64,000 bases of DNA from Leisingera sp. M658 (GTDB lineage: Bacteria > Pseudomonadota > Alphaproteobacteria > Rhodobacterales > Rhodobacteraceae), in contig NZ_CP083546.1 of the NCBI RefSeq assembly GCF_025144145.1, positions 633,001-697,000 on the forward strand, given 5' to 3'. The notes beneath the pieces were generated by a model. It saw only the letters and a list, made by a program, of their open reading frames with translations. It did not search any database and had not been told where the DNA came from. Both the position numbers and the translations under genes were made by a program. Within the stretch, counting starts at the first letter, position 1. Every line of letters starts with the position of its first letter. Shown piece by piece: positions 4,174-47,260 of this stretch.

Positions 4174-4262
4174 GGGCGGGGGCGGCTCCCGCCAGGTGTT
4201 CAATCATCAGGAGATGATTTCCGCCTGTTGGGCCCGGCACCGCGCCTTGCGCGGCGCAGCCC
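4174..4262 (+). repeat. Dispersed intergenic repeat, copy A (after moaE)
   Basis: Starts 12 bp after the moaE stop and runs in the gene direction. It has a GCGGCTCCCGCC box (4181-4192), a TTGGGC box (4228-4233) and a GC hairpin (ACCGCGC, loop CTT, GCGCGGC, 4239-4255). Five other copies in the window share this layout. Confidence 0.7.
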
Positions 4263-4403
4263 GGTTGCAAATGGCGGCGGGTCACAGGGGCCGCAGGCCC
4301 CGCGAGCCCCGAACGGCTTCGCCTGGATACGCCGGCTTCAAATAACATCAGACAAGGCTTGGAGGGCAGACTTGCCCGTTCTGGCCTATCTAGCAGCAAG
4401 GCA
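4263..4403. other. Intergenic segment between two convergent repeat copies
   Basis: Part of the 341-bp gene-free stretch between moaE and the convergent 104-aa gene. It contains a short hairpin, GGGGCC-GCA-GGCCCC, near 4287-4301. I see no plausible coding region; the open frames here lack coding character and a ribosome site. Confidence 0.6.
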
Positions 4404-4491
4404 ACCGCCGTGCGTCAGCACGGCGCTACGCCCAAGGCTGTTCAGACGGTGCTGGCGCAGCCAGCGCGGGCTGCAGGCGCGGGAGTGCCCC
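4404..4491 (-). repeat. Dispersed intergenic repeat, copy B
   Basis: Minus-strand copy that begins 13 bp after the stop of the gene ending at 4504, in the direction of that gene. Read on the minus strand it has GGGCACTCCCGCGCC (4476-4490), then TTGGGC (4430-4435), then a perfect 8-bp hairpin with arms 4406-4413 and 4418-4425 (CGCCGTGC and GCACGGCG). It faces copy A. Confidence 0.68.
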
Positions 4492-4503
4492 GGTGCCCCG
4501 ACC

Positions 4504-4818
4504 TCAATGCGGGATCTGGTTGCGCAGCTCTTCGGCTTCGCGGCGGGCCTCGCGCAGGCCATCCATTGTTGCCCGCAGCTCGGCCTCGGTCTGGGTCAGC
4601 TGGTTGGTCAGCTCGGCCTCGCGCTGCTGCAAATAGGTGATCGCCTGGTCGCGGGTTTCTTCGGCCTCATGCAGCTCTTGGCTCATCCGGTCGAGGTCGG
4701 CCACATCGCTTTGCCGCACCCGGGTGAAACGGTGCACCAGCCAATTGGCGAACCAGCCCAGGGCAAAGGCCGCGAACAGGATGATCGCGGTGGTGATGAT
4801 GAACTCTGTCCTGTTCAT
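4504..4818 (-). CDS. Small membrane-anchored coiled-coil protein
   Basis: 104 aa. One N-terminal membrane helix (about residues 7-27, FIITTAIILFAAFALGWFANW) is followed by a long charged coiled coil rich in Glu, Gln and Arg (residues about 36-100). I do not recognise a named family. Its start codon overlaps the stop of the upstream OmpA-like gene (ATG at 4818), so the two are translationally linked. This suggests a partner role at the envelope, but no enzyme motif is present. Confidence 0.82.
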   Translation of the reverse strand: MNRTEFIITTAIILFAAFALGWFANWLVHRFTRVRQSDVADLDRMSQELHEAEETRDQAITYLQQREAELTNQLTQTEAELRATMDGLREARREAEELRNQIPH

Positions 4819-6707
4819 TACTCTGTGGTCTCCTGTGCGTCTTCTGCGCTTTCGGCGGCCTCTTCGCCGTTGCCCGTATCAGCGGCGTCTTCCACGGCCG
4901 CGGGGCGGATCAACTTGAATTCAATGCGACGGTTGGATTCGCGGCCGTCTTCCGTTGCGTTGTCGGCAATCGGCTCGCTTTCGCCATAGCCCTTGGCGGC
5001 AAAGGTGGAAGTGACCACCCGGCGCGCCCGCAGCTCGTTCAGCACCGATTGCGCGCGCGCCTGGCTTAGGTTCTGGTTCATCGCCTCGCGGCCCTGGCTG
5101 TCGGTATGGCCCTGGATTTCGAGCCGGACCGGTCCGCAGCGGCCAAGGACACCGGCGATCCGGTCCATGGTTCCTGTGCTTTGTGCCGCGATGGTGGCCG
5201 AACCGGGTTCAAAGGCAATCTTGGCCTCGCTTTGGGCGCTGGCAAGCTGCGCCTCGCACAGTTCCGGCGGCAGCGGCTTGTCCTTGGGTTCGGGCGGCTT
5301 TTCATAGCTGATGTCGAGACCGTAAGTGTCGGCCTCGCCCAGTTTGGCAGAAAGGAAGCGGGCAATCTCTGCCGGGGCGTCCTTGCGGTAGCTCATGCCG
5401 CGCAGCTCCAGATTGCCGGGGGTTACCGTAACCGCGCCGCGCTGCAGATAGGAGAGCGCTTCCAGCGCTGCCAGCACCCGTACCGGCCAATCGGCAGGCA
5501 GGTCGGCGACAACACGGGCTGCTGTGTGCACGTTGTCCGACCCGAACCGTGCCTTGGCGTAACTGTCGGCCACCGTGCGCTGCGCTGCATCTGTAAGGCG
5601 CCCGCGCAGCTGCACTTGACCCTCGGGGCTGAGGGTCGCGGTAAATTCAGGGATGCCGCCGGCGTCCCGGGTTTCGGGCACCGGCAGGACCGCGTGCAGG
5701 GCAAAGACCCGGGGCAGGGCGTTTTCCAGCTCGCCCGCCACATGGTCAAACCGCGCGCTTTCGGTACCTTCTGCGGCGGCCAGCGTGATATCCGCATTGG
5801 CAATGGTCACCGTTCCGCCGCCAAGTTCGGCCAGGCTTGCAATGCTCAGTTCCGCCGCGCGGGCCCAGTTGGGGGAGGGCACCCCCATACCAATCACGCA
5901 ATCCGCCTCATCCTGCAACCCGGCCTTGCGGGCGGCGGCCAGAATACGGTTGCGGCTTTCCTCGCTTTCGGCGGAGCAGGCATCGAATTCTGCGCCGTCC
6001 GGTCCCAAGAGGAAGCGCAGGGTGAAGGGGGTGATCACCGGGCGCGGTGCCGCGATATCAAGCGCCAGCCGCATGCCAGGCGGGGCCTTGCGGCCAAGCT
6101 GCTCTTCCAGCTGCGCCTTGGCCTCTTCGCTGTCGGAAATGGCGGTGATCGAGACATCCCCCGTCGCCACAGAGATTTTCGCGCGTGGCAGCAGCTTCAG
6201 CGCTTCGACTGCGAAGTGCATTGACTCCTGCCAGCCGTCAGGGATTGTGTATTTCGCGGTTTCCAGCAGATCGGCCACATTCTCGTCGCCTGCCAGCGCC
6301 TCAAGCTGTTTAACCAGAGCTGTGCGACCTGTGCCCGCGGGGATCAGACCGATAATCGAGATGCCGCTGTCATTACGCAGAATTTCCGCCGAGAACCGCG
6401 GCGGTGCCAGGCCATCGGCGGGCGGCACATCCATGCCATCAAGGATTCGCGCCGCATCGACAACCGTGCCGGCCAGCGATTTGACCGAGAACCGCGTCGC
6501 CTCGTCCGGAGCAGTGCCTTCGAGCAGCACCTGCAAACCGTCGGAGGTTACTTCAGCCCAGGTGAAACCGCCGTCATCCAGCGCCCGGCGCACAGCCGTT
6601 TCTGTGCTCCGTTCCACAGCGGTGACGGCAAATCCGGCGGCAACAAGGCTCAGCCCGGCAGCAGCGGCAAAGGCCAGGCCCGGGATCAACAGCTTAGACA
6701 GGCGCAT
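4818..6707 (-). CDS. OmpA-family protein with BON-like repeats
   Basis: A 629-aa envelope protein. An N-terminal membrane/signal helix (residues about 5-30) is followed by several similar blocks, each with a tryptophan, a helix containing ALxxL, and a strand pair of the form GxVxVxxxxLxLxG. These resemble BON-type phospholipid-binding domains. The C-terminus (about 490-605) is an OmpA/MotB peptidoglycan-binding domain: IEIQGHTDSQG, NLSQARAQSV, and ESNRRIEF. The acidic tail ends in EDAQETTE. The probable role is anchoring to peptidoglycan from the inner or outer membrane. The BON assignment is from repeat pattern only. Confidence 0.88.
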   Translation of the reverse strand: MRLSKLLIPGLAFAAAAGLSLVAAGFAVTAVERSTETAVRRALDDGGFTWAEVTSDGLQVLLEGTAPDEATRFSVKSLAGTVVDAARILDGMDVPPADGLAPPRFSAEILRNDSGISIIGLIPAGTGRTALVKQLEALAGDENVADLLETAKYTIPDGWQESMHFAVEALKLLPRAKISVATGDVSITAISDSEEAKAQLEEQLGRKAPPGMRLALDIAAPRPVITPFTLRFLLGPDGAEFDACSAESEESRNRILAAARKAGLQDEADCVIGMGVPSPNWARAAELSIASLAELGGGTVTIANADITLAAAEGTESARFDHVAGELENALPRVFALHAVLPVPETRDAGGIPEFTATLSPEGQVQLRGRLTDAAQRTVADSYAKARFGSDNVHTAARVVADLPADWPVRVLAALEALSYLQRGAVTVTPGNLELRGMSYRKDAPAEIARFLSAKLGEADTYGLDISYEKPPEPKDKPLPPELCEAQLASAQSEAKIAFEPGSATIAAQSTGTMDRIAGVLGRCGPVRLEIQGHTDSQGREAMNQNLSQARAQSVLNELRARRVVTSTFAAKGYGESEPIADNATEDGRESNRRIEFKLIRPAAVEDAADTGNGEEAAESAEDAQETTE

Positions 6708-6767
6708 ATGGCAGCATTTTCCCAGTTTGCGTTACAGGCTCTTACCCTGCGCGCGGCTGCGGTTCAA

Positions 6768-7730
6768 TCACGCGAACATGGCCAGCACAAAGAAGATCAG
6801 CGGAATCAGGCCGGTATCACGGTTGAGACGGAACAACTGCAAGAGTCTTTGCGTGTTCTCCGCGTCAAAGGCGCGCAGTTGCCAGGTCAGGTGCCAGCCC
6901 ATCGCCCAAGGGGCCGCCAGCGCCAGCACCAGCGCCAGCACCGAGGCGCTGTCCTGCACTGCCAGGATCACCGCCAGCGCCATCAGGCTGACAAAGGCCA
7001 CGATGAAGCGGCGCAGCCACATTGGTGTTTGCGTGCCGAACAGCCGGGCGGTGGATTTCACCCCGATCAGCGCGTCGTCCTCGGTGTCCTGATGGGCATA
7101 GATGGTGTCGTAAAACAGCGTCCAGGCGATGCCCGCCAGATACAGCAGAACCGGCGGCCAGCCGAGGGTGCCGGTATGCGCCACCCAGGCCAGCATCGCG
7201 CCCCAGTTGAAGGCGAGCCCCAAAAACACCTGCGGCCACCAGGTGAACCGTTTGGCAAAAGGGTAGACCGCCACCGGCAGCAGCGACAGGATGCCCATGG
7301 CAATGGCCGCCTGGTTGAAGGTCAAAAGGATCAACAGGCCCGCCAGGCATTGCAGCCCCATCCAGGCCAGCGCGCCCTTGACCGTAACCTGCCCCGAGGG
7401 GATGGGGCGCGAGCGGGTGCGCTCTACCTGGCCGTCGAAATTGCGGTCGGTGATGTCATTCCAGGTGCAGCCTGCGCCGCGCATCAGCCAGGCGCCGCCG
7501 GCACATCCCGCAGCGATCCACAGATCCTGCCAGCGCGGGCTCTGGTCCGACAGGATTGCCAGCGCCAGCCCCCACCAGCAGGGGATCAGCAGCAGCCAGG
7601 TGCCGATCGGCCGGTCGGCGCGGGACAGCCGCAAATAGGGCCGCGTCCACTCCGGCGCATAGGTGTCGACCCAGTTTCCACGGACCGCATCCGCAACCTG
7701 ACCCTCTGGCGCTGGCTTCTGGCCTTGCAT
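6768..7730 (-). CDS. ubiA: 4-hydroxybenzoate polyprenyltransferase
   Basis: Integral membrane prenyltransferase that attaches the polyprenyl chain to 4-hydroxybenzoate in ubiquinone synthesis. The first aspartate-rich motif is intact (NDITDRNFDGQVERT, with NDxxDxxxD), followed by RSRPIPSG. A second motif, YDTIYAHQDTEDD, lies about 110 residues later. About eight hydrophobic segments follow. With the ATG at 7730 the protein is 320 aa; a longer frame from 7793 would overlap the divergent rsmE gene. Only 12 bp separate the two divergent starts, so the promoters must overlap the other gene or lie within it. Confidence 0.95.
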   Translation of the reverse strand: MQGQKPAPEGQVADAVRGNWVDTYAPEWTRPYLRLSRADRPIGTWLLLIPCWWGLALAILSDQSPRWQDLWIAAGCAGGAWLMRGAGCTWNDITDRNFDGQVERTRSRPIPSGQVTVKGALAWMGLQCLAGLLILLTFNQAAIAMGILSLLPVAVYPFAKRFTWWPQVFLGLAFNWGAMLAWVAHTGTLGWPPVLLYLAGIAWTLFYDTIYAHQDTEDDALIGVKSTARLFGTQTPMWLRRFIVAFVSLMALAVILAVQDSASVLALVLALAAPWAMGWHLTWQLRAFDAENTQRLLQLFRLNRDTGLIPLIFFVLAMFA

Positions 7731-7742
7731 ATGTAGGACCCC

Positions 7743-8468
7743 ATGAGTGCAAAAATCAGACTGTATGTAGAGCACCCTTTGGGCGCAGGGCAATCACTTC
7801 CCTTGGATCGTGATCAGGCGCATTACCTGTTCGGGGTGATGCGGCAGGGCGCCGGCGCCCATGTGGCGCTGTTTAACGGCCAGGATGGCGAGTGGCTGGC
7901 CGAAGTAGCCGAGGCCGGAAAGCGCGGCGGCACGCTTGTGTGCCGGGAGCAGACCAAGCCGCTGCAAATGCCGCCGGATCTGTGGCTGATGTTTGCACCG
8001 ATCAAGAAGGCACGCACCGATTTCATCGTCGAGAAGGCGGCGGAGATGGGCGCCGCCCGCATCCTGCCGGTGCAGACGGATTTCACCAATTCCGAGCGCA
8101 TCCGCCAGGACCGGCTGCAGGCCCATGCAGTCGAGGCGGCGGAACAATGCGGCGGCACCTATGTGCCGGAGGTGGCGGAGCTGCAAAAGCTCTCGCGCCT
8201 GCTGGATCAATGGCCCGCCGGGCGCCAGCTGATGTTCTGCGACGAGGCGGAGGCAGGCAACGCGCTGCAACTGGCGGCAGAGACGCAAAAGGGCGCGCCC
8301 TGGGCCATTCTGATCGGCCCCGAGGGCGGGTTTTCGGACACGGAGCGTAAACGTCTGCACGCGCTGCCGCAGTCCCATGTGGTCAGCCTTGGGCCCCGCA
8401 TCCTGCGGGCCGACACGGCGGCGGTGGCGGCGCTGACCCTCTGGCAACAGGTTCTGGGAGATTGGTAA
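7743..8468 (+). CDS. rsmE: 16S rRNA (uracil-1498-N3)-methyltransferase
   Basis: SPOUT-class methyltransferase that methylates U1498 of 16S rRNA. The 241-aa chain shows an N-terminal PUA-like region (DQAHYLFGVMRQ), the linker KKARTDFIVEKAAEMG, and the C-terminal knot with IGPEGGFSDTE and SLGPRILRADTAAVAAL, all standard for RsmE. The next gene starts at the base after its stop codon. Confidence 0.95.
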   Translation: MSAKIRLYVEHPLGAGQSLPLDRDQAHYLFGVMRQGAGAHVALFNGQDGEWLAEVAEAGKRGGTLVCREQTKPLQMPPDLWLMFAPIKKARTDFIVEKAAEMGAARILPVQTDFTNSERIRQDRLQAHAVEAAEQCGGTYVPEVAELQKLSRLLDQWPAGRQLMFCDEAEAGNALQLAAETQKGAPWAILIGPEGGFSDTERKRLHALPQSHVVSLGPRILRADTAAVAALTLWQQVLGDW

Positions 8469-9449
8469 ATGACTGATTTCACGCGGTTCTTTGCGCCAAA
8501 GCGGCCGGAAGACGCAGAGCGGCAGTTGACGCGGGTGCAGCGTCAGGCAAATTTGAGGTGGCCTCGCCAGCAGACGCTTTTGGGTTCGGCCCTCAGGATT
8601 TCTCCCGAGGCATCTGTTTTTCGGGGCGAGCGGGAATCCCGTGCGGTGGTCGTCAAAAAGTTCTGGGAGCTGGAAAGCCGGCGCGCTTTTGTCGGTCAGA
8701 CCACAGAGGCACTGGACAGACTTGCCTCGCTTGGACCGCATCCGGAGTTTTCCTTCAATGAACTTTTGGCCACTTCTGGGCATCTCGGGCTGGTAATCGC
8801 GAGCTTTGAAGGCGGGACGCCGGTTGACAAGCTGCTAGAAGAACCGGACGTCAACCGCAGGCAGTTGATCAAGCGCTGTTGCGATTGGCAGCATTGGGCA
8901 GAACAAGAGGACTTCGCTCAAACCGGGCTGAACACAGACGGTCTCGCTGCCGAGATCAACCGGATTTTGCAAAACCGCATTCAACACCGCGATGCCGGGT
9001 TGCTGGTAGAACTCGGCAGCGCTTTGCTTGACATGCTGGGTGGGCTGGCAGGAAAGCCAGTGCTGAAAGCGCCGGGTCATCCCGACTTTGCTCCGCGCAA
9101 CTTTATCATGCGCGAAGACGGCATTCTATCCGCGGTAGACATTCACCGCGTTGGAAAGTTTGTAAAAACCCGCCAGTCCGCAATGTTTCTGGTGTCAAAG
9201 GACTTTCGGGAGATGGAGATTTCCCGGCCGCTTTTGTTCGGGCTGGACCGGCAGGAGCTGCGCCAGTTCCTGACCCACGGCACTGTTCCTGCCCAAGAGG
9301 TCAATTCCCTGCTGATTTTCTTCATCGGGCTTACATACTTTACCATATACGCTAGAAATCCGGGCAAGCCACGAAAGATGCGGGTCAGGCGTCGAAGAAT
9401 CCGGGTGTTTCTGGCACACCTCCGGCAAGGCAAAAGGATATCGAGATGA
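8469..9449 (+). CDS. Protein-kinase-fold phosphotransferase of unknown substrate
   Basis: A 326-aa cytoplasmic protein starting directly after the rsmE stop. Motifs fit the aminoglycoside-phosphotransferase/kinase fold: a VVVKKF strand with a candidate ATP-binding lysine (about residue 59), a hinge-like segment VIASFEGGTP, a catalytic loop H-P-D-F-A-P-R-N (HxDxxxxN, about residue 205), and a following AVDI that could supply the metal-binding Asp. The C-terminus is very basic (RKMRVRRRRIR). I cannot name the family or substrate. The next gene overlaps by 4 bp (ATGA). Confidence 0.72.
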   Translation: MTDFTRFFAPKRPEDAERQLTRVQRQANLRWPRQQTLLGSALRISPEASVFRGERESRAVVVKKFWELESRRAFVGQTTEALDRLASLGPHPEFSFNELLATSGHLGLVIASFEGGTPVDKLLEEPDVNRRQLIKRCCDWQHWAEQEDFAQTGLNTDGLAAEINRILQNRIQHRDAGLLVELGSALLDMLGGLAGKPVLKAPGHPDFAPRNFIMREDGILSAVDIHRVGKFVKTRQSAMFLVSKDFREMEISRPLLFGLDRQELRQFLTHGTVPAQEVNSLLIFFIGLTYFTIYARNPGKPRKMRVRRRRIRVFLAHLRQGKRISR

Positions 9450-9973
9450 GTTTCATCCGCCCCGAAGCCCGCGCCGCTCTTTGGCAATGGCGCGAGGTCC
9501 TTGCTGCGGTACTGATGTTCCTGCTGGGGCTGAAATGGGCCTTCTCCGAAGCTGGTTTCACCGCAATCACCGGCTGGGCCTTTGTGGCCACCGGTCTGGC
9601 GACGGCTGTCATCGGCGCGCAGCGGATGCGCTTCCGGCGCGGACCCGGCGGCCCCGGCGTGGTGCAGGTGGACGAAGGGCAGATCGCCTATTTCGGGCCG
9701 CTCACCGGCGGTGCCGTGGCGGCGTCTGAATTGGAGCGGCTGGCGCTGGATCAATCCTCCAAACCGCCGCATTGGCTGCTGGAACAGCCGGGCCAGCCGC
9801 CGCTGGCAATCCCGGTAAATGCCGAAGGTTACGAGGCGCTGTTTGACGTCTTTGCCGCGTTGCCGGGGCTTAAAACCGAACGGATGCTGACCGAACTGCG
9901 CCGCCGCGGCCCTCACCAGGTCGTGATCTGGGAACGCTCTTCCAGCCGGCCGGAACATCAGCGCCTGCATTGA
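9446..9973 (+). CDS. Conserved membrane protein, two N-terminal helices
   Basis: 175 aa. Two hydrophobic helices (about residues 17-33 and 38-57) precede a soluble domain with a PH-like strand pattern (GVVQVDEGQIAYFGPLTGG, LERLAL) and a C-terminal helix. No catalytic motif is visible. It overlaps the kinase-like gene by ATGA and lies 65 bp upstream of gshA, so rsmE, the kinase-like gene and this gene form one operon. Function unknown. Confidence 0.8.
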   Translation: MSFIRPEARAALWQWREVLAAVLMFLLGLKWAFSEAGFTAITGWAFVATGLATAVIGAQRMRFRRGPGGPGVVQVDEGQIAYFGPLTGGAVAASELERLALDQSSKPPHWLLEQPGQPPLAIPVNAEGYEALFDVFAALPGLKTERMLTELRRRGPHQVVIWERSSSRPEHQRLH

Positions 9974-10038
9974 CACCGGCGGTGATTCCGCCCACGACTG
10001 ACCCTTCATGACAGACCTAACAGGACGGAGTGCCAGGC

Positions 10039-28738: not shown

Positions 28739-28820
28739 CCGGGTGCTCCCGCCCTTTGTTCCATTCATCATAGATGACCGGAAAAAGGTTGGGCGTGGCG
28801 CCGCGCAAGCACGGCGCGCC
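28739..28820 (+). repeat. Dispersed intergenic repeat, copy C (after yqgE)
   Basis: Begins 31 bp after the stop and runs in the gene's direction. It has GGGTGCTCCCGCCC (28741-28754), TTGGGC (28789-28794) and a hairpin GCGCCGCGC-AA-GCACGGCGC (28798-28817, one C-A mismatch). Confidence 0.7.
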
Positions 28821-28964
28821 TCCCGTTGAGGCGAGGCCCGTCCCGGATCTCATGCCGGGGCTGGTTTCCAGGCCGGAGGGGCGGGCTTTCATCAATTGAA
28901 ATTGTTGCAGTGGCGGTGGTTGTGCTTCCTTGGCGGAAGTAAATCAGCGGCTTGGGTGCATGGC
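28821..28964. other. Gene-free segment between convergent repeat copies
   Basis: Middle part of the 367-bp gap between yqgE and tsaC. No coding sequence is supported. A short CAATTGAAATTG motif (28894-28905) is the only other feature I see. Confidence 0.55.
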
Positions 28965-29050
28965 TGCGCCGCGCCGCGCTTGCGCGGCGCCATGCCCAAC
29001 GGTTTGGCACCCATCTTGGATGGGTTTCAAACGGACGGGAGTGTTCTGCC
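28965..29050 (-). repeat. Dispersed intergenic repeat, copy D (after tsaC)
   Basis: Minus-strand copy beginning 25 bp past the tsaC stop, in the gene direction. On that strand it has GCAGAACACTCCCG (29037-29050), GTTGGGC (28994-29000) and a perfect 9-bp hairpin GCGCCGCGC-AA-GCGCGGCGC (28971-28990). It faces copy C. Confidence 0.7.
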
Positions 29051-37104: not shown

Positions 37105-37592
37105 AGATCTACGGCGTCACCGGCTGGAAGAACAACGGCAAGACCGGGCTGATGGAGCGGTTGGTAGCCGAATTCTGTGAGCGCGGCCTTACCGTTTCCA
37201 CCATCAAGCACGCCCATCACGCCACCGATGTGGACCAGCCCGGCACCGACAGCCACCGCCACCGCCAGGCCGGCGCGTCGGAGGTGGTGCTGGCCTCGGC
37301 TGGCCGCATCGCAATCATGCAGGAGCTGCGCGATGCGGCAGAACCGCCGCTGGCAGAGCTGCTGGCCCGCCTGCGTCCCGTCGATCTGGTGCTGGTCGAG
37401 GGCTACAAGCGCGAACCCCACCCTAAGATTGAGGCTTTCCGGCAGGAAGCAGGCACCGAACTGATCGCCCCGGAAGACCCGAATATCCGGGCCGTTGCCA
37501 GCAACACCGCGATGGCGCTGGACCGCCCGGTTTTTGATCTGAACGATACGGCAGCTATTGCGGATTTCATCCAGATAGAACTGGGGCTGTGA
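37101..37592 (+). CDS. mobB: Molybdopterin-guanine dinucleotide biosynthesis protein B
   Basis: 163-aa GTP-binding partner of MobA. The P-loop is GVTGWKNNGKTGLMERL at the very N-terminus, followed by VSTIKHAHH and DLVLVEGYKREPHPKIEAF (Walker B-like). It overlaps mobA (ATGA) and the next gene (GTGA), so all three are translationally coupled. Confidence 0.95.
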   Translation: MKIYGVTGWKNNGKTGLMERLVAEFCERGLTVSTIKHAHHATDVDQPGTDSHRHRQAGASEVVLASAGRIAIMQELRDAAEPPLAELLARLRPVDLVLVEGYKREPHPKIEAFRQEAGTELIAPEDPNIRAVASNTAMALDRPVFDLNDTAAIADFIQIELGL

Positions 37593-39721
37593 CCCGTTTT
37601 GATACTGTTCTCACCGTCGATTGGTCTGCTGCCAAGCGCAAGCCCCGGCGCCAATGCAAAGATGCGATCTGGCTTGGTGTGGCGCGCGGCGGAACCGCGG
37701 AAAGGCAAATCTACTGCCGCAGCCGGCAGGAGGCAGAGGTTTGGATCAGCAGCTTCCTCGACGCGGAACAGGCCGCGGGACGGCGGGTTCTAGCCGCATT
37801 TGATTTTCCTTTCGGCTATCCGCGCGGGTTTGCGCGCCGGATCACCGGGTCCGATGACCCATTTGCTTTATGGGCCTGGCTGGAAGAGCGGATCGAAGAC
37901 ACTGAGGACGGAACCAACAACCGGTTTGAAATAGCCTCTGAAATGAACCGGATGTTTACCGAATCCGGTCCGTTCTGGGGCAAACCTGATGAGAAGACCT
38001 GGCCGGACATTCCCTATCGCAAAGCCGGTATAATCTATAAAAACGTGGCAGAACGGCGCAGCGCGGATCTGGCGGCCAAGGCGGCCTCTTCCTGTTTTCA
38101 GCTGTTCTTCAACCCGACTGTTGGCAGTCAGGTCCTCATGGGGGTGCCGGTTCTGCAGCGGTTGCGGCTCCGGCACAGGGCCGCTGTCTGGCCTTTCGAA
38201 AAGGTTGAGACAGCACAAACTGTTTTTGCTGAGATATGGCCAGGTTTGATCGAGCCTGCCGTTAAGGCCGCAATGGCTGTTGCGGGCCGGGACGAAATAC
38301 GCGACCGGGTGCAAATGCGGCTGTTGTCGCAGGCGCTCAGCCGTCTGCCGGCCGGGGAGCTTGCCGGAATGCTGGCGGCAGTACCTGAGGAAGCACAAGA
38401 GGAAGCTTTGATATTGGGCACGGGATACGAAGACCGCTTGAACGCGCTGGCAGCGGATGAACCGGGCCGGCTGACACCGCCGCCGCTCAGCAATGATTGC
38501 TTTGCCCTGCCTGCAGGCGTGGATTGGACCCCGGTGGATGACGCGTTAACTCTGCTGCGGGACAGGCTGGGGCCGGTCACCGGAGTGGAAACACTGCCGC
38601 TGGCAGACGCCCTTGGCCGGGTGCTGGCAGAGAGCGCAGTGGCCAAACGCTCCAACCCGCCGCTGCCCAATACAGCAGTGGATGGTTACGGCTTTGCCGG
38701 CGGCAAGGCGGAAGGCCCGCATGTGCTGCCGCTCATGCCGGGACGTGCCGCAGCCGGCGTTCCCTACGACGGCACTGTGCCCGCAGGCAGCGCCATCCGC
38801 GTTCTGACCGGCGCCGCGTTGCCGGATGGCGTGGATACGGTGATCCTCGAGGAAGACGTGAACACCGACGGTACCCGGATCGCCTTCAACGGCCCGCTGA
38901 AACAGGGCGCAAACACCCGCAAGGCTGGTGAGGACGTCTGCGCGGGTGACGTCATCCTGCCCGCAGGCCGGGTCATATCACCCGCTGATCTGGCTCTGGT
39001 CTCGGCCACAGGTCTGGCGGAACTCGCGGTCCGTCTGCCGTTGCGGGTCGGTGTGCTCTCCACCGGCGATGAGCTGGTCGAGGCAGGAGAACCCGCAGGC
39101 AAAGGGCAGATCTTTGATGCTAACCGTCCGATGCTGCTGGCGCTGATCCGCCAGCTCGGATTTGTACCGGTTGACCTGGGCAAGGCCGCGGATGACCGCG
39201 AAGCCTTGCGGGCGGATCTGGACAGCGCTGCCAAACAGGCTGACGTTATCCTGACCTCGGGCGGTGCCTCCGCCGGGGACGAGGACCATATGTCGGCACT
39301 GCTGCGCGAAGCGGGCGCGATGCAGGAATGGCGCATCGCGCTGAAACCCGGCCGCCCTCTGGCGCTGGGCATGTGGCAGGGCACGCCGGTCTTCGGACTG
39401 CCGGGCAACCCGGTGGCGGCTCTGGTCTGCACCCTGATTTTTGCCCGCCCGGCGATGGGGCTGATGGCGGGTGCGGGTTGGCAAAAACCGCAGGGTTTTG
39501 AGGTGCCAGCGGCCTTTGAGAAACGCAAGAAACCCGGCCGCCGCGAATACTTGCGGGCACGGGTGCGGGATGGGCAGGCCGAGGTGTTCAAATCCGAAGG
39601 CTCCGGCCGCATCAGCGGCCTTAGCTGGGCCGAGGGGCTGGTGGAACTTGGAGACGGCGCTGCAGAGATCAACCCCGGCGATCCTGTGCGGTTCATTCCT
39701 TACAGCAGTTTCGGCATGTAG
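37589..39721 (+). CDS. moeA: Fusion: MoeA molybdotransferase with extra N-terminal domain
   Basis: 710 aa in one uninterrupted frame starting with GTG. Residues about 1-300 form a separate domain (TVLTVDWSAAKRK, VLAAFDFPFGYPRGFA, DDPFALWAWLEERIED, NRFEIASEMNRMF, VGSQVLMGVPVLQRLR). In other Rhodobacterales I remember a stand-alone gene of this kind labelled molybdopterin guanine dinucleotide synthesis protein; the VDWS opening suggests an RNase H-like fold. Residues about 310-710 are a normal MoeA (RSNPPLPNTAVDGYGF, VLSTGDELVEAG, ILTSGGASAGDEDH, GLPGNPVAALV), which inserts molybdate into adenylylated molybdopterin. The N-domain's role is unknown. Confidence 0.9.
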   Translation: MTRFDTVLTVDWSAAKRKPRRQCKDAIWLGVARGGTAERQIYCRSRQEAEVWISSFLDAEQAAGRRVLAAFDFPFGYPRGFARRITGSDDPFALWAWLEERIEDTEDGTNNRFEIASEMNRMFTESGPFWGKPDEKTWPDIPYRKAGIIYKNVAERRSADLAAKAASSCFQLFFNPTVGSQVLMGVPVLQRLRLRHRAAVWPFEKVETAQTVFAEIWPGLIEPAVKAAMAVAGRDEIRDRVQMRLLSQALSRLPAGELAGMLAAVPEEAQEEALILGTGYEDRLNALAADEPGRLTPPPLSNDCFALPAGVDWTPVDDALTLLRDRLGPVTGVETLPLADALGRVLAESAVAKRSNPPLPNTAVDGYGFAGGKAEGPHVLPLMPGRAAAGVPYDGTVPAGSAIRVLTGAALPDGVDTVILEEDVNTDGTRIAFNGPLKQGANTRKAGEDVCAGDVILPAGRVISPADLALVSATGLAELAVRLPLRVGVLSTGDELVEAGEPAGKGQIFDANRPMLLALIRQLGFVPVDLGKAADDREALRADLDSAAKQADVILTSGGASAGDEDHMSALLREAGAMQEWRIALKPGRPLALGMWQGTPVFGLPGNPVAALVCTLIFARPAMGLMAGAGWQKPQGFEVPAAFEKRKKPGRREYLRARVRDGQAEVFKSEGSGRISGLSWAEGLVELGDGAAEINPGDPVRFIPYSSFGM

Positions 39722-39722: not shown

Positions 39723-39872
39723 CCGGGCGCTCCCGCCCGCGGCCCGGCGCATCGCAGATGCTTGCCCGCCGTTGGGCATGGCGCCGTGCTGCGGCCCGGC
39801 GCGCCACCGCCCCGCCGCTTCTTTCTGGTCAAAAATACCCGCGCCGCAGGCAGTGGCCCGAAGGGCCGCCTC
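39723..39872 (+). repeat. Dispersed intergenic repeat, copy E (after moeA fusion)
   Basis: Starts 2 bp after the stop. It has GGGCGCTCCCGCCC (39725-39738), TTGGGC (39772-39777) and the hairpin half GCGCCGTGC (39781-39789). A TTCTTTCTGGTCAAAA tail (39819-39834) is shared with copy F. E and F are nearly identical over about 55 bp. Confidence 0.75.
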
Positions 39873-40904: not shown

Positions 40905-40925
40905 GAACACTCGCTGCTTTGCGGA

Positions 40926-41396: not shown

Positions 41397-41645
41397 GAGA
41401 TTGGTCCAGGTCGCTATTATGGTTTTTCTTGTCAGTATGAAAACCGCAGCCCCGCAGCATAAGCCGCGGGGCCTCCGGTCCGGTTGACAATTACCTGACC
41501 CAATCCTGCACCTGATTTCAAGTGCGCGCGGGGCTTGCCGGCACGCAATTCCGCCTAAGCGGGCGGATTGCGGGACTTTTCCACAGAATTGCGCGAAAAA
41601 ATGCCGCGCAGGGGCAGCTTCGCGAGCCCCGCCTGCCATAGAATA

Positions 41646-42026
41646 TCAATCATATTGCACCGCCTCGTATTCGATGCCGTTGTCGTCATGAAAGTAAAAC
41701 CGGCGGCCCGGTTCATAGTCGCCGTGGTTGATCGGCGTGAAACCCGCGGCCTTCACTGCAGCTTCGGTTGCGTCCAAATCCTCGACGATCACCGCCAGAT
41801 GGTTCAGCCCGCCGACAATGCCATAGCTCTCCGGCGCTTTGCCTGCGGGGGTGCGCGGCGTGTAAAGCGCAAGATAGCTGGTCTCGCCGCCGGTATGCAC
41901 GGTGTAGCCGCCATTCTTGGCCTCGCCTTCCCAGCGCACATGCCAGCCGAAAACCTCTTTCATCCATTTCGCAGTGGCATTGGGGTCGGCCACGGTGACG
42001 TTTGCATGTTCAAGAACTGCGCTCAT
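41646..42026 (-). CDS. VOC (glyoxalase-like) protein, likely SoxR target
   Basis: 126 aa, a single vicinal-oxygen-chelate domain: LEHANVTVADPNATAKWMKEVFGWHVRWEG, LAVIVEDLDATEAAVKAAGF, and FYFHDDNGIEYEAVQYD (C-terminal Glu ligand). The start at 42026 has GGAGA upstream. It is divergent from soxR, and the shared 96-bp region holds a SoxR-box-like palindrome placed inside a promoter that reads into this gene. Substrate unknown; a role in dealing with redox-cycling compounds is inferred from the regulator. Confidence 0.88.
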   Translation of the reverse strand: MSAVLEHANVTVADPNATAKWMKEVFGWHVRWEGEAKNGGYTVHTGGETSYLALYTPRTPAGKAPESYGIVGGLNHLAVIVEDLDATEAAVKAAGFTPINHGDYEPGRRFYFHDDNGIEYEAVQYD

Positions 42027-42069
42027 TGGAAATCTCCTTCTCGCCTGAGCAAATCTGTTGATACGACTC

Positions 42070-42100
42070 ACTCTAATTCCTAAACCTAACTTTAGCTCAA
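42070..42100 (-). promoter_or_regulatory. SoxR-type promoter of the VOC gene
   Basis: Palindrome CCTAAACCTAACTTTAGC at 42079-42096 matches 13 of 18 bases of the E. coli SoxR box. On the minus strand it sits between a -35-like TTGAGC (42095-42100) and a -10-like TAGAGT (42070-42075), giving a 19-bp spacer, the over-long spacing typical of MerR/SoxR-activated promoters. Confidence 0.65.
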
Positions 42101-42122
42101 GCAGTTTTTCAGGGAGTGCACC

Positions 42123-42578
42123 ATGCCGTCATCCGCCGGGATTTCCATTGGTTATCTGGCCGGCCGCACAGGTCTTGCCGTGTCCGCGATCCGCTATTAC
42201 GAGGCGCAGGGGCTGGTGGAGCCCTGGCGCAATGCGGGCGGGCAGCGGCGGTTTCACCGGGCCGACATCCGGCGGATGAGTTTCATCATGATTGCCCAGC
42301 AGTTCGGCTTTTCGCTGCCGGAGATCCGCGGTTTCCTGCAAAGCCTGCCGGGCAGCCGCACCCCCACCAAAGAAGACTGGGCCTGCATCTCGGACAGCTT
42401 CCGCAGCCATCTGGACCAGCGAATCGAAACCTTGGTGCGGTTGCGCGACAATTTGGACGGCTGCATAGGCTGCGGCTGCCTTTCGCTTCCGAATTGCAAA
42501 CTGTACAACCCCGAAGACAAGGCTGCACAGAAGGGGCAGGGACCCCGATACCTGATGGGAGACCGGCCCGAGACATGA
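42123..42578 (+). CDS. soxR: Redox-sensitive transcriptional activator SoxR
   Basis: 151-aa MerR-family regulator. The N-terminal winged helix (ISIGYLAGRTGLAVSAIRYYEAQGLVEPWRNAGGQRRF) and the C-terminal 2Fe-2S ligand motif C-x2-C-x-C-x5-C (DGCIGCGCLSLPNCK, about residues 118-130) are complete. It senses redox-cycling compounds through oxidation of the cluster. No soxS is present, as usual outside enterics. The divergent VOC gene is the likely direct target. Confidence 0.95.
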   Translation: MPSSAGISIGYLAGRTGLAVSAIRYYEAQGLVEPWRNAGGQRRFHRADIRRMSFIMIAQQFGFSLPEIRGFLQSLPGSRTPTKEDWACISDSFRSHLDQRIETLVRLRDNLDGCIGCGCLSLPNCKLYNPEDKAAQKGQGPRYLMGDRPET

Positions 42579-42771
42579 GCTGCGGCGGAAAATGATCCTT
42601 GAATGACGAAATTGGACGCACTTTTTGTCTCAGTTGCCTGTTTTACAGGTGTTTGACGCGGAGTTTGGATTGACCGGCAGGTCTGCCAAACGCTAAGCAA
42701 CCGCGAAATAATATTGCGCCCACGCACCATTGTGGGGCCGGTAGCGAATAAAAGCCAAGGAGCGCCGCAAA

Positions 42772-44421
42772 ATGGCCGAGATTGAACGCGAAGCGATGGA
42801 ATACGACGTGGTGATCGTCGGGGCCGGCCCTGCCGGTCTGTCTGCGGCCATCCGCCTGAAACAGCTGGACGCCGACCTGCAGGTCGTGGTCCTGGAAAAA
42901 GGCTCGGAAGTGGGCGCGCATATCCTGTCGGGCGCGGTGCTGGACCCCTGCGGCCTGAACGCGTTGATCCCCGACTGGAAGGAAAAGGGCGCGCCGCTGA
43001 ACGTCAAGGTCAAGGAAGACAACTTCCTGATGCTGGGCGAAGCCGGCCATGTCCGTATCCCGAACTTCCCGATGCCGCCGCTGATGAACAATCATGGCAA
43101 CTATATCGTCTCGATGGGCAACGTCTGCCGCTGGATGGCCGAGCAAGCCGAGGAAATGGGCGTTGAGATCTTCCCAGGCATGGCGTGCTCGGAACTGGTT
43201 TACGGCGCGGGCGGCGAAGTGAAGGGCGTGGTTGCCGGCGAATTCGGCAAGAACCCCGATGGCACCCCGGGCCCGTCGTATGAGCCCGGCATGGAACTGC
43301 ACGGCAAATATGTCTTCATTTGCGAAGGCGTGCGCGGCTCGCTTGCCAAGGAAGTGATCAATAAATACGACCTCGCCGCCGGCAAAGAAGTGCAGAAATA
43401 CGGCGTCGGCATGAAAGAGATCTGGGAGATCGACCCCGCCAAGCATAGCGAAGGCACCGTCACCCACACCATGGGCTGGCCGCTGGGTAAGAACGCAGGC
43501 GGCGGCTCGTTCATCTATCACCTGGACAACAATCAGGTATACGTCGGTTTTGTGGTTCACCTGAACTACAAGAACCCGCATCTGTTCCCCTACATGGAAT
43601 TCCAGCGCTTCAAGCACCATCCGGTGGTGGCCGAGCTGCTGAAGGGCGGCAAGCGCGTGGCATATGGCGCCCGCGCTATCACCGAAGGCGGCTGGCAGTC
43701 GATGCCGAAACTGGTCGCGCCGGGCGTGGCGCTGCTGGGCTGTTCGGCCGGCATGGTCAACGTGCCGCGCATCAAGGGCAACCACAATGCGATGCTGTCG
43801 GGCAAGGCCGCTGCCGAAGCTGCCTTTGACGCGATCAAGGCCGAGCGTTCGGGCGACGAGCTGACCGCCTATGAGGCCGACGTGCGCGACGGCGCTATCG
43901 GCAAGGACCTGAAGATGGTCCGCAACGTCAAGCCAATGTGGTCCAAATGGGGTCTCACCGCCTCGCTCGCTTTTGGCGGGCTGGACATGTGGACCAACAA
44001 CCTGCTGGGCTTCTCCTTCTTTGGCACCCTGGGCCACGGCAAGAATGACGCCGAAGCGACCGAGGAAGCCTCCAAGCACAAGCCCATCGATTACCCCAAG
44101 CCCGATGGCGTGCTGTCCTTCGACCGGCTGACCAACGTGTCTTTTGCGATGACCAATCACGAGGAAAGCCAGCCCTGCCACCTGCAGCTGGGCAATGCCG
44201 ACACTCCGATCCAGGTCAACCTGCCGAAATTCGCCGAACCGGCGCAGCGCTATTGCCCCGCCGGCGTCTACGAGGTGGTGGAAAAAGACGGCCAGCCGGA
44301 GTTCGTGGTCAACTTCCAGAACTGTGTTCACTGCAAGACCTGCGACATCAAGGACCCGTCCCAGAACATCACCTGGACCACGCCGCAGGGCGGTGACGGG
44401 CCGAACTACCCGAACATGTGA
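42772..44421 (+). CDS. Electron transfer flavoprotein-ubiquinone oxidoreductase
   Basis: 549-aa membrane-associated enzyme that passes electrons from acyl-CoA and other dehydrogenases via ETF to ubiquinone. The N-terminal FAD site is DVVIVGAGPAGLSAAIRL (about residues 9-26). The 4Fe-4S ligands are at the C-terminus: QRYCPAGVYE, then NFQNCVHCKTCDIKDP. The length matches the family. It is monocistronic and followed by a strong hairpin. Confidence 0.96.
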   Translation: MAEIEREAMEYDVVIVGAGPAGLSAAIRLKQLDADLQVVVLEKGSEVGAHILSGAVLDPCGLNALIPDWKEKGAPLNVKVKEDNFLMLGEAGHVRIPNFPMPPLMNNHGNYIVSMGNVCRWMAEQAEEMGVEIFPGMACSELVYGAGGEVKGVVAGEFGKNPDGTPGPSYEPGMELHGKYVFICEGVRGSLAKEVINKYDLAAGKEVQKYGVGMKEIWEIDPAKHSEGTVTHTMGWPLGKNAGGGSFIYHLDNNQVYVGFVVHLNYKNPHLFPYMEFQRFKHHPVVAELLKGGKRVAYGARAITEGGWQSMPKLVAPGVALLGCSAGMVNVPRIKGNHNAMLSGKAAAEAAFDAIKAERSGDELTAYEADVRDGAIGKDLKMVRNVKPMWSKWGLTASLAFGGLDMWTNNLLGFSFFGTLGHGKNDAEATEEASKHKPIDYPKPDGVLSFDRLTNVSFAMTNHEESQPCHLQLGNADTPIQVNLPKFAEPAQRYCPAGVYEVVEKDGQPEFVVNFQNCVHCKTCDIKDPSQNITWTTPQGGDGPNYPNM

Positions 44422-44460
44422 TCGGAATTTCAGCTTTTCGGCGCGGTTTTGCCGGAATTT

Positions 44461-44486
44461 ATGGGGCGGCCCTCGGGCCGCCCCAT
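44461..44486 (+). terminator. Hairpin after ETF-QO
   Basis: Perfect 12-bp inverted repeat (ATGGGGCGGCCC, loop TC, GGGCCGCCCCAT) 40 bp after the stop. No clear T-run follows. Confidence 0.6.
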
Positions 44487-44557
44487 TGCGTGTTGACGGG
44501 CGGCGCACTACGCTTTCTTAGAAGAGCAAAGAGCAGTAAATCGTAAAGGGGTCCCGC

Positions 44558-46270
44558 GTGCCCGTATCCATTCTTCGCACCCTGTCCTGTGCGGCCCTGG
44601 TGGCCGCTTCCGTGCCTGCCGCGCAGGCGGAAGGGCTGGCCGGGTCCTATCTGGCCGGACGGGCCGCAACCTATGACAGCGATTTTGCTGCCGCGGCTCT
44701 GTATTATACACAGGCCCTGGCCCGCGATCCGCAGAACCCGCTGCTGATGGAAAACGTGGTGTTTGCGCAGCTCGCCATGGGCAAGGCTGAACTGGCGGTG
44801 CCGGTCGCCGCAAGGCTGCTTCAATCCGGCGCCCGCAGCCAGGTGGCCAACATCATAATTGCAGGCGGCCATGCCGCAGATGGTGATTTCCAGGCGATCC
44901 TGGATCGCGACGCCGAACAGGAAGCAATCCATCCGCTGGTGGACGGCTTGCTGGAAGGCTGGGCGCATATCGGCAACGGCTCCATCTCCAACGCGCTCAA
45001 GACCTTTGAACGGCTGGCCGAAGATGGCAGCCTGCGGCCCTTTGTGCTTTACCACCGGGCACTGGCGCTGGCCTCGGCCGGCGACTACGGCGGGGCCGAG
45101 GCGCTGTTTGCCGCCGAGGATGGCCGCCTGGCCACTCTCAGCCGCCGGGCGGCAGTTGCAAGGGTGCAGATCCTGTCGCAGCTGGGCCGCAGCGATGACG
45201 CTCGTGAAGCGCTGAATACAGCCTTCGGCAGCCGCCTGGACCCCGGGCTGGAAGCCATGGATGCGCAGCTCGCCGCCGGGGAAACGCTTGCCTACACCAT
45301 CGCCCCCAGCCCGCGGGAGGGGGTGGCTGAGGTGTTCTATACCCTTGGTGCAGCGCTGAATGGCGATACAGCCAACGATTACGTGCTGATGTATGCCCGC
45401 ATGGCGGCCTCACTGCGCCCCGGTCATGTGGACGCAATCCTGCTGAGCGCCGGGCTGCTGGACCAGCTGGGCCGCTATGAGCTGTCGGTTGCGACCTACA
45501 AACAGGTGCCCAGCAGCCATCCCGACTATCACGCCGCTGAAATGGGCCGCGCCGAGGCGCTGCGCCGCGCCGCCAAACCGGACGCGGCAATCGAAGTCCT
45601 GGAACAGCTGGCGCGGGACTTCCCGGAACAGCCCAGCGTCTATGTCAGTCTCGGCGATCTGCTGCGCCAGCAGGAAGATTACGCGGGCGCTGCCGGCGCT
45701 TATGACAAGGCGCTGGCCAACACATCTGAAGAGTCCGGCACCCGCTGGTTCCTCTATTATGCCCGCGGTATCTGTCATGAGCGGCTGGACCAATGGGACC
45801 AGGCCGAGGCCGATTTCCGCGCCTCGCTGGAACTGGACCCGAACCGGCCGCAGGTGCTGAACTACCTGGGCTATTCGCTTGTCGAAAAAAGCAGCAAGCT
45901 GGACGAGGCGCTGGATATGATCGAACGCGCTGTCGCGGCACGCCCTGATTCAGGCTTCATCGTCGACTCCCTGGGCTGGGTGCTTTACCGCATGGGCCAG
46001 TTTGACGATGCGGTTGCCCATATGGAACGCGCGGTCGAGCTGATGCCGGTGGATCCGGTGGTCAATGACCACCTGGGCGACGTCTATTGGGCCGTGGGCC
46101 GGGAACGTGAAGCAGAATTCCAGTGGAAGCGGGCGCTGTCTTTTATTGATCCGGAAGATACCGACGGCGAAGCCGACCCCGAACGCATCCGCCGCAAGCT
46201 GGAGGTCGGCCTGAACGCGGTGCTGGCCGAAGAAGGCGCTGAGCCCCTGAAGGTCGCCAATGGCGGCTGA
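44558..46270 (+). CDS. Exported tetratricopeptide-repeat protein
   Basis: 570 aa with a signal peptide (LRTLSCAALVAASVPAAQA) and many TPR helix pairs; the clearest are ALYYTQALARDPQNPLLMEN, DQAEADFRASLELDPNRPQVLNYLGYSLVE, AVAARPDSGFIVDSLGWVLYRMGQ and AVAHMERAVELMPVDPVVNDHLGDVYWAVG. It is probably a periplasmic or outer-membrane scaffold. It starts with GTG. ispE overlaps its end by 11 bp, so the two are coupled. Confidence 0.9.
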   Translation: MPVSILRTLSCAALVAASVPAAQAEGLAGSYLAGRAATYDSDFAAAALYYTQALARDPQNPLLMENVVFAQLAMGKAELAVPVAARLLQSGARSQVANIIIAGGHAADGDFQAILDRDAEQEAIHPLVDGLLEGWAHIGNGSISNALKTFERLAEDGSLRPFVLYHRALALASAGDYGGAEALFAAEDGRLATLSRRAAVARVQILSQLGRSDDAREALNTAFGSRLDPGLEAMDAQLAAGETLAYTIAPSPREGVAEVFYTLGAALNGDTANDYVLMYARMAASLRPGHVDAILLSAGLLDQLGRYELSVATYKQVPSSHPDYHAAEMGRAEALRRAAKPDAAIEVLEQLARDFPEQPSVYVSLGDLLRQQEDYAGAAGAYDKALANTSEESGTRWFLYYARGICHERLDQWDQAEADFRASLELDPNRPQVLNYLGYSLVEKSSKLDEALDMIERAVAARPDSGFIVDSLGWVLYRMGQFDDAVAHMERAVELMPVDPVVNDHLGDVYWAVGREREAEFQWKRALSFIDPEDTDGEADPERIRRKLEVGLNAVLAEEGAEPLKVANGG

Positions 46271-47081
46271 GGTCTTTGCGCCTGCCAAGATCAACCTGAC
46301 CCTGCATGTGACCGGCCGCCGCGCCGACGGCTATCACCTGCTGGACTCGCTGGTGGTCTTTGCGGACACCGGGGACCTGCTGCAGCTTGATCCAGGACCT
46401 GAGCTGGCGCTGGAGGTCTCCGGCCTGTTTGCGGAAGGCGTGCCGGCGGATGAGCGCAACCTGGTTTGGAAAGCCGCCGCGGGAGCAGGCTGGACCGGCC
46501 GGATCAGCCTCAATAAGCATTTGCCCCATGGCGCAGGCATCGGAGGCGGTTCGTCAGACGCCGCTGCCGTTCTGCGGGCGCTTTACGGGCAGGGCTGCGG
46601 TATTCCCGATGAATTGCCGCTGTCGCTTGGTGCTGATGTGCCGGTCTGCATGGCCGCCCGCGCGGCCCGGATGCAAGGGATCGGCGAACAAGTCGCGCCG
46701 GTGGAGCTGCCAGAGCTGCACGCGCTGCTGGTCAATTCCGGCGCACATGTCCCGACCGGGCCGGTGTTTTCCGAACTTGCCTCCCGCAACAATCCGCCGA
46801 TGCCGCAGGACATTCCGGCTTTTGCCTCAGCTGAGGACTGCGCCGCGTGGCTTGGCGAACAGCGCAACGACCTGGAGGCTCCAGCCATAAGTGTTGCGCC
46901 GGAAATTGAACGGGTGCTCGCGGACCTGCGCTGCTCCCGCAACGCGCTGCTGGCCCGCATGTCCGGTTCCGGCGCCACCTGTTTTGCGCTCTACCCATCA
47001 AGGAAAGCCGCTCATTTTGCGGCCTATGAAATCGGGGCGGAGCATCCCGCGTGGTGGTGCAGTGCAGTCACTTTGACCTGA
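46260..47081 (+). CDS. ispE: 4-diphosphocytidyl-2-C-methyl-D-erythritol kinase
   Basis: GHMP kinase of the MEP isoprenoid pathway that phosphorylates CDP-methylerythritol. 273 aa with APAKINLTLHVTGRRADGYHLLDSL at the N-terminus, the ATP loop KHLPHGAGIGGGSSDAAAVLRAL (about residue 85-107) and the C-terminal ARMSGSGATCFALY. It overlaps the upstream TPR gene. Repeat copy F follows. Confidence 0.95.
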   Translation: MAAEVFAPAKINLTLHVTGRRADGYHLLDSLVVFADTGDLLQLDPGPELALEVSGLFAEGVPADERNLVWKAAAGAGWTGRISLNKHLPHGAGIGGGSSDAAAVLRALYGQGCGIPDELPLSLGADVPVCMAARAARMQGIGEQVAPVELPELHALLVNSGAHVPTGPVFSELASRNNPPMPQDIPAFASAEDCAAWLGEQRNDLEAPAISVAPEIERVLADLRCSRNALLARMSGSGATCFALYPSRKAAHFAAYEIGAEHPAWWCSAVTLT

Positions 47082-47101
47082 AGCACTGCGCGCGGCGGAA
47101 C

Positions 47102-47260
47102 ACGGGCACTCCCGCCCGCGGCCCGGCGCATCAAAGATGCTTGTCCGCCGTTGGGCCGGGCGCCGCGCTCACGCACGGCGCTGCAGCGCTGAACAGCTTC
47201 TTTCTGGTCAAAATACCCCGGGGGTGAGGCCGTAAGGCCGAGGGGGCAGCGCCCCCTTTG
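47102..47260 (+). repeat. Dispersed intergenic repeat, copy F (after ispE)
   Basis: Begins 20 bp after the stop. It has GGGCACTCCCGCCC (47105-47118), TTGGGC (47151-47156), hairpin GCGCCGCGC-TCAC-GCACGGCGC (47160-47181), and a TTCTTTCTGGTCAAAA tail. A further stem, GGGGGC-AGC-GCCCCC with TTT, near 47243-47260 could end ispE transcription. Confidence 0.75.

Follow-up and report, generated by a model that had tools for sequence, protein, structure and literature searches.

Behind the 3' ends of genes in Leisingera sp. M658 (Rhodobacteraceae) lies a dispersed, intergenic family of repeats of about 80 nucleotides (nt), built of two hairpins, and within the first of these, hairpin A, the selected fold is found on the strand antisense to the gene that the repeat follows. 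Six copies had been noticed, in a preliminary description made from the sequence alone, in a window of 64,000 nt (contig NZ_CP083546.1 of assembly GCF_025144145.1, positions 633,001 to 697,000 of the forward strand), by which I mean the whole stretch of DNA that was analysed. The family is clade-specific and resembles the repetitive extragenic palindromes (REPs). Repeats of this kind at gene ends are already known, and their functional strand, if there is any, is rarely clear. In this study I show, for two genera, that covarying stems hold A.C and G.U pairs in a ratio that places the preserved fold of hairpin A on the other strand from that of the adjoining gene. Throughout, X is the gene that a copy follows on its own strand, and Y the convergent gene that it faces.

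A repeat family with two covarying hairpins

The covariance model used for the searches, R1, was trained on 33 copies of the host genome, those of the window among them; of 52 pattern matches in an 857-kb stretch, seven were dropped by eye, as they lay inside genes, lacked hairpin B or overlapped, and of the 45 that were left, 33 entered the model. When these copies are aligned without an imposed structure, CTCCCG and TTGGGC are present in every row, and RNAalifold, unaided, finds the base stem CCCG/UGGG, the adjoining pair and hairpin B. In the unit thus delimited, hairpin A has a base that does not vary (CUCCCGC opposite UUGGG) and an arm that does, with covariation; the GC-rich hairpin B comes next. 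In this structure 78.2% of the cells pair, compared with 67.9% in shuffles and 37-48% in slid versions of it, and cells changed on both sides number 112 versus 47.9 in shuffles. Four of five covariation measures lie above all 500 shuffles, while the fifth was reached by 13 of the 500. The pair at columns 11/58, for example, is kept in all 33 rows, as C-G in 24, G-C in 8 and A-U in one. The base of hairpin A allows a second register in some copies, and its exact pairs are thus not fixed.

In the host genome the sequence pattern occurs 172 times and its reversed version 50 times, and R1 finds at least 139 matches at E <= 0.001, 137 of them on the main contig. The suggestion that the window copies belong to a real family with covarying hairpins is therefore borne out by the genome-wide search, with well over 100 copies. 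The smaller replicons, C2-C7, are nearly free of the family (2 of 139 matches lie outside the main contig, which makes up 4.32 of 4.89 Mb). The 146 copies considered below comprise 70 singles, 42 in nearby pairs of opposite orientation and 34 in fused pairs; the latter stand back-to-back with one palindromic hairpin B in common, and mostly join two arm types, 'CCCGCCCG/CCTG' and 'CCCGCGCCCGCAG'. Structure tests cover the 142 copies that could be parsed (68 single, 41 paired, 33 fused).

Two further structural elements were considered and rejected as general parts of the unit. A closing stem of CUCCCG with CGGGAG is not present in all copies, as CGGGA follows within 60 nt past hairpin B in 32 of 33 fused copies, 10 of 68 singles and 8 of 41 paired ones, and in the single and paired copies is no commoner than a control word. 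Nor is there a universal upstream GGG hairpin, with GGG at positions -11 to -1 in 42 of 68 singles and only 10 of 33 fused copies.

Every one of 21 genomes of the genus has matches, from 54 to at least 112 each. This genus is most likely Leisingera, the name borne by the three closest UvrC relatives (84-96% identity). Within the Rhodobacteraceae, at least 41 of 247 genera have one or more, as found in a scan with stricter filters and 18 scored candidates per genome. No match was seen in 16 genomes of the class that belong to other families, and a wider class sample of 289 genomes gave matches in two, each of them from within the Rhodobacteraceae.

The repeats lie between convergent genes

Gene positions were taken from a codon-usage gene caller, not from the annotation. 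In the 857-kb stretch R1 gives 52 matches, one of which (24 bits, overlapping) was dropped, and none of the remaining 51 overlaps a predicted gene by more than half. Among gaps of at least 80 nt in this stretch, elements occupy 26 of 75 between convergent genes, 8 of 242 between co-directional genes and 2 of 116 between divergent genes (Fisher, p = 4.8e-12 for convergent versus co-directional, p = 2.3e-10 versus divergent). Of all 146 copies, 124 have an upstream gene on the same strand and 117 are opposed by a convergent gene; of the 122 same-strand copies that are outside genes, 88 begin no more than 40 nt past the upstream stop codon. The 95 copies outside the 857-kb stretch, none of which had been used for training, give the same picture: 81 follow a gene on their own strand, 74 are opposed by a convergent one and two lie in predicted genes. 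For single copies, the median distance from the stop of X to the start of the copy is 21 nt and, where there is a convergent Y, that from the end of the copy to the stop of Y is 79 nt. In G236, a genome of another genus, the 30 best-scoring of 79 copies were examined; 24 are opposed by a convergent gene, and for 23 the upstream gene is on the same strand.

The strand bias relative to the upstream gene, which had been proposed from the six window copies, consequently holds genome-wide. As to placement, the preliminary description was right, for most copies, in putting them directly behind a stop codon and in the direction of the gene that ends there, and missed the preference for convergent junctions as well as the back-to-back pairs with a common hairpin B. 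Its view of the repeats as REP-like also stands: they are palindromes dispersed outside genes in many copies, they sit at the 3' ends of genes whose neighbours are convergent or unidirectional, and they are hence REPs in the broad sense.

Of the 68 single copies on C1 of the host genome, 53 are oriented in the direction of replication (p = 4e-6; dnaA lies at the contig start), though convergent junctions offer both strands. A function tied to the replication strand was rejected as not general, since the single copies of G236 are distributed +18/-14 before 2.4 Mb and +12/-13 after it.

The fold of hairpin A is kept on the strand opposite the adjoining gene

A covarying RNA stem should tolerate G.U pairs and not A.C, and the stems were detected with a scoring that treats both alike. 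When read on the strand of the gene before, the arms of hairpin A hold 52 A.C and 16 G.U pairs (p = 1.4e-5), whereas arm composition, worked out by hand, predicts about 1.16 A.C per G.U. These events are spread over many copies, and G.U:A.C amounts to 5:21 in singles, 7:18 in pairs and 4:13 in fused copies. Hairpin B of the non-fused copies is balanced (12 G.U, 13 A.C), which speaks against a general strand-biased mutation as the source of the bias in A. Folding energies point the same way as the pairs: the opposite strand of A has the lower energy in 132 of 142 copies, and in 125 when the inner arm alone is folded. The asymmetry is -4.0 kcal/mol compared with -1.2 in shuffles (p = 4.7e-16, n = 109 non-fused copies), and the folding advantage of the opposite strand exceeds the effect of base composition.

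The bias recurs in G236, with one G.U against 21 A.C and with the opposite strand folding better in all 30 best-scoring copies and in 38 of 39 distinct arms. Sets of copies from single junctions give G.U:A.C of 1:6 (yqgE/tsaC), 2:4 (slyD side) and 0:4 (moaE/uvrC), none of them significant alone, and the best copies of relatives give 1:13; these four sets hold a few host copies, while that of G236 holds none.

Within hairpin A, the selected fold thus lies on the strand antisense to X. The folded unit had been taken to be the 3' untranslated region (UTR) of the gene before it, and for this claim both pairs and energies come out reversed, in the other genus too. Given its direction, the bias implies that the selected fold belongs to RNA or single-stranded DNA running from Y into X. 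At each of the positions -3 to -5 ahead of CTCCCG, 80-88% of the type 1 copies have a purine; in G236 the counts are 29, 21 and 23 of 30. On the opposite strand the corresponding pyrimidines could pair, wobbles included, with the GGG of CGGGAG, and might so form a third hairpin with an AGNN loop.

Conservation and rewriting at orthologous junctions

At the yqgE/tsaC junction 18 of the 21 genus genomes have a match at E <= 0.01. In 17 orthologous rows the yqgE-side copy exists in two very different forms, both fully paired: one with CCCTTTGTTCC..GGAAAAAGG and a GCCGCGC hairpin B, the other with GCGCGTTTTCTG..CCCAAAACCC and a GCGCCCATC hairpin B. Both hairpins have therefore been rewritten at this site with their pairing kept, a complete compensatory change. 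Past uvrC, at the moaE/uvrC junction, both window copies have counterparts in four loci (L101-L104) and copy 1 of Table 1 also in a fifth (L105), with sameness of place inferred from position; the five include Phaeobacter and a Roseobacter metagenome-assembled genome. Genome G006 has an orthologous copy after ispE, and at its moeA junction the same A arm as the host. As the moeA and ispE arms are nearly alike in both genomes, copying between these sites seems to be old, before the split of the host from G006. The G006 copies at ispE and moeA, together with the yqgE site, suggest constraint at some sites. A fused copy beside a SlyD-like gene (so named from a reading of its sequence) was compared in 21 species: both arms are present in 7, internal deletions in 3, the same gene end without the element in 5, and other neighbours in 6.

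Terminators near the repeats

On neither strand is a hairpin of the unit directly followed by a U-tract, as it would be in an intrinsic terminator; on the sense strand, runs of at least four T within 30 nt after hairpin B occur in 10 of 68 singles. Canonical terminators stand near 28 of 89 X genes with proximal copies and at 50 of 136 convergent genes without a copy (p = 0.47), and in 39 of 41 single convergent cases no U-tract terminator lies between X and the copy, the space there being mostly short. In a smaller first set, a canonical terminator was found in one of 14 Y genes with a copy on the X side only, versus 50 of 136. At the fused site near slyD, the neighbour carries a separate hairpin with A- and T-runs, and does so in species with the element as well as in those without it.

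Possible function

The reading that I prefer, and hold tentatively, is that this clade-specific, REP-like family acts on transcripts arriving from the convergent side. A more specific version is possible but doubtful, namely an RNA family directed against antisense transcripts: a module behind the 3' end of a gene that would fold only in RNA of the opposite direction, process or stop convergent or spurious antisense transcripts and, when duplicated, serve both genes. In its working form, RNA coming from Y, or from antisense promoters, towards X would fold hairpin B, then A, and perhaps then the third short hairpin (GCGGG-AGNN-YY). This fold would form just before RNA polymerase enters X from behind, the last place before the strand becomes antisense to X. 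The element could then fix or protect a 3' end, be it as an exonuclease stop after loose termination, as a processing site or by assisting termination, and antisense RNA over X would be limited as an outcome. Back-to-back copies would act in both directions around their common hairpin B, and for co-directional copies the antisense RNA would have to come from other promoters. Provided that it acts on RNA, the family would be a cis element dedicated to countering antisense transcription where genes converge.

Several observations weigh against an action on RNA from the side of Y. The copies hug the stop of X and not that of Y, and 19 of 70 singles have no convergent gene opposite them. The invariant base contains a G-U (33 of 33) that is a G.U only on the strand of X and an A.C on the other, and RNAalifold, applied to 30 of 64 eligible copies in an alignment with misaligned arms, does not tell the two orientations apart (-6.5 versus -5.9 kcal/mol). 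Folded single-stranded DNA would leave the same signature, there as G.T. On the Y strand no U-tract follows CGGGAG, with T runs of at least four within 30 nt in 3 of 68 singles. Y genes that face a single copy have a canonical terminator in 7 of 39 cases compared with 27% in matched control regions, so that the low count of the first set was not repeated; the X genes show no difference either, and neither a clear replacement of canonical terminators by the element nor an effect on termination in either direction could be seen. At yqgE loci of other genera, one of 27 has a match, which argues against deep conservation. Finally, at 12 convergent orthologous junctions where the host has an element, G006 has it at 6 and is without it at 6 (lost or never had); no junction has it in G006 only.

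These last junctions also bear on a rather unlikely alternative, a DNA repeat in the manner of REPs and of bacterial interspersed mosaic elements (BIMEs) without a specific RNA role. Such a neutral or mildly useful palindrome would be tolerated only at gene ends, spreading and disappearing slowly, perhaps bound by a topoisomerase or a nucleoid protein at places where supercoils accumulate between convergent genes. The gain or loss seen at 6 of the 12 sites, the internal deletions at the slyD side (in 3 of the 10 species in which the element is retained), the near-identical arms of two window copies at unrelated genes, the back-to-back dimers and the lack of a strand preference in hairpin B are all in line with it, and a convergent location is typical of REPs in the portions of PMC1525189 and PMC3733652 drawn on here. 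It would not lead one to expect the strand-specific preservation of fold A or the complete compensatory rewriting at the yqgE site, and the host genome has no Y1 transposase (PF01797). Taken together, the gains and losses at junctions and the kept pairing indicate that sites come and go as units, and that surviving copies keep their pairing. That the X transcript folds A and B after its stop codon, and is terminated there or protected from 3' exonucleases, as the preliminary description had it, is unlikely: the excess of A.C over G.U and the poorer folding on the X strand disagree with it, as do the scarcity of U-tracts after B and the equal frequency of canonical terminators near proximal copies. 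The location on the strand of X near its stop in most copies, the conserved G.U on that strand and the missing U-tract terminator between X and copy would fit such a role.

An unusual bidirectional intrinsic terminator, with elaborate hairpins and hardly any U-tract, would suit the convergent placement and the symmetry of the fused copies around one shared B, and the first sample of Y genes had pointed to it; with no clear deficit of canonical terminators in the larger sample, and with the neighbour at the slyD site having its own hairpin whether or not the element is there, I consider it quite improbable. That the repeats are sites of recombination, recognised through a folded bottom strand like the attC of integrons, is highly improbable. 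The attC sites follow the stop codon of a gene and work through the strand opposite to it, with consensus boxes RYYYAAC and GTTRRRY. The repeats share with them a strand-specific fold, a variable arm top and conserved boxes, and GTTGGGC fits the R' consensus GTTRRRY. However, CTCCCGC does not fit RYYYAAC and the copies are dispersed rather than in a cassette array. No integron integrase scored over the cut-off, where the search gave 20 weaker tyrosine-recombinase matches, in a test that is weak, as 14 controls were also without a positive.

Leisingera-type roseobacters are often used as marine models, and the family would give them a defined 3'-end feature for annotation. The test on A.C and G.U pairs could be used on other REP families.

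The copies of the window and their surroundings

All six copies of the preliminary description are present in the window (Table 1), each on the strand of the gene before, with CTCCCG starting 23, 18, 38, 33, 8 and 27 nt past the stop codons in the order of the table. The pattern CTCCCG-N(20-50)-TTGGGC has exactly six matches in the window, which are these six, with no seventh; in shuffled windows it occurs 0.88 times on average and at most 4 times, and six were reached in none of 100. R1 scores the six at 50.9-71.4 bits. The exchange of T-A for C-G between the copies at 4404 and 28965, which had been remarked on as compensatory, is visible in the sequence.

Table 1. Copies of the repeat in the 64,000-nt window, in window positions
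Copy	Gene before	Extent	Strand	Score (bits)	Hairpins
1	moaE	4183-4262	+	60.3	A 4186-4233 (CTCCCG...TTGGGC), B directly after
2	104-aa gene	4400-4488	-	52.8	A 4430-4485 (type 2 arm), then B on - strand
3	yqgE (DUF179)	28743-28822	+	60.9	A 28746-28794, then B
4	tsaC (Sua5/YrdC)	28966-29044	-	71.4	A 28994-29041, then B on - strand
5	moeA	39727-39807	+	50.9	A 39730-39777, then B
6	ispE (GHMP kinase)	47106-47186	+	64.0	A 47109-47156, then B

Pfam supports MoaE, DUF179/AlgH-like (which I take to be the family of YqgE), Sua5/YrdC (TsaC), MoeA and a GHMP kinase for the genes before the copies; the name IspE for the last is the reading of the preliminary description. The gene of 104 amino acids (aa) has a sub-threshold prefoldin match as its sole Pfam signal. 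The moeA frame, 37589-39721, encodes 710 aa, with Pfam MoeA domains only from residue 315 and no Pfam match for residues 1-314. The arms of hairpin A after moeA and ispE are nearly identical, at unrelated genes.

The last two units had been drawn too long (39723-39872 and 47102-47260), and the remainder includes a different repeat. This second repeat lies on the opposite gene's side of the junctions, at 39813-39872 and 47195-47262 in the window and also on the Y side of C1:470574, 561908, 748035, 2267436 and 3881138. When read in the direction of gene Y, it shows a GGGGGCGCTGCCCCC-type hairpin followed by a short one that leads into GGGTATTTT and CCAGAAAGAAG; it looks like a terminator-bearing repeat. 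A third pattern after gene Y, GGGTCAAGG...GCAGCCGCCGCGC...GCGCGGTTCACCCTTGA, whose outer arms are able to pair, is found on the Y side of C1:788816, 1199907, 1560203, 2746176, 2884585 and 3512827, and of C3:161463.

Relation to known repeats

No named family was thought to fit these repeats, and Rfam agrees, with no match at gathering thresholds in the 64-kb window; a lax threshold brought up, at two sites, only weak matches below those scores, to families that are unrelated. In the open-licence literature I found no fitting description of this repeat or of a Rhodobacterales 3'-end repeat. The CcsR or cuckoo RNAs of Rhodobacter carry the motif CCUCCUCCC in hairpin loops, whereas CUCCCG is here at the stem base in the 33 aligned copies. 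Enterobacterial REP/BIME repeats are linked to Y1/RAYT transposases. Unlike them, the present family resides in a genome with no match to the Y1 transposase PF01797, in a search in which 5 of 14 controls were positive, and mobility driven by RAYT was rejected on this ground. The placement between convergent genes is shared with enterobacterial REP/BIME, which are frequent there according to the part of PMC1525189 used, and for which 3' exonuclease blocking and termination are mentioned as RNA roles in that of PMC5082802. GTAG REPs are linked to Y1/RAYT transposases as well, going by the excerpted text of PMC3733652. Their palindrome has a GTAG/GTGG tag at one end; here GTGG or GTAG stands right after TTGGG in 46 of 142 copies, where it is part of the B stem.

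Among the Alphaproteobacteria, the RIME of rhizobia are described, in the section of PMC2573895 referred to, as many-copy intergenic palindromic repeats of unknown function. The present repeats are likewise intergenic, palindromic and in many copies; RIME come from a different clade and are set apart by description, not by sequence. As far as the cited passages of PMC3733652 go, the CGTC-tagged REPs have stems of 8-9 bp, loops of 4-5 nt and the CGTC tag, lie near gene 3' ends between convergent or unidirectional genes, occur mainly as head-to-head dimers and have no dedicated transposase. The tag of these REPs is unpaired, and they have a CCA-like tail. The present family resembles them as a set of dispersed palindromes at gene 3' ends, with dimers and without a dedicated transposase. 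It differs in its longer unit (about 80 nt), which is made of two hairpins and in which the arms vary and the invariant base has a mismatch; CGTC is found near the base in 29 of 142 copies. Br-REP1 of Bradyrhizobium is located in overlapping 3' UTRs of convergent genes and has three stem-loops, with an unrelated consensus, a fixed 20-nt palindrome, and the passages of PMC5082802 cited here report neither a strand-specific fold nor compensatory rewriting for it. The closest known kinds are the CGTC-tagged REPs and Br-REP1; the family resembles the known REPs in the way it works, but the tests for tag and transposase are negative and its architecture is different.

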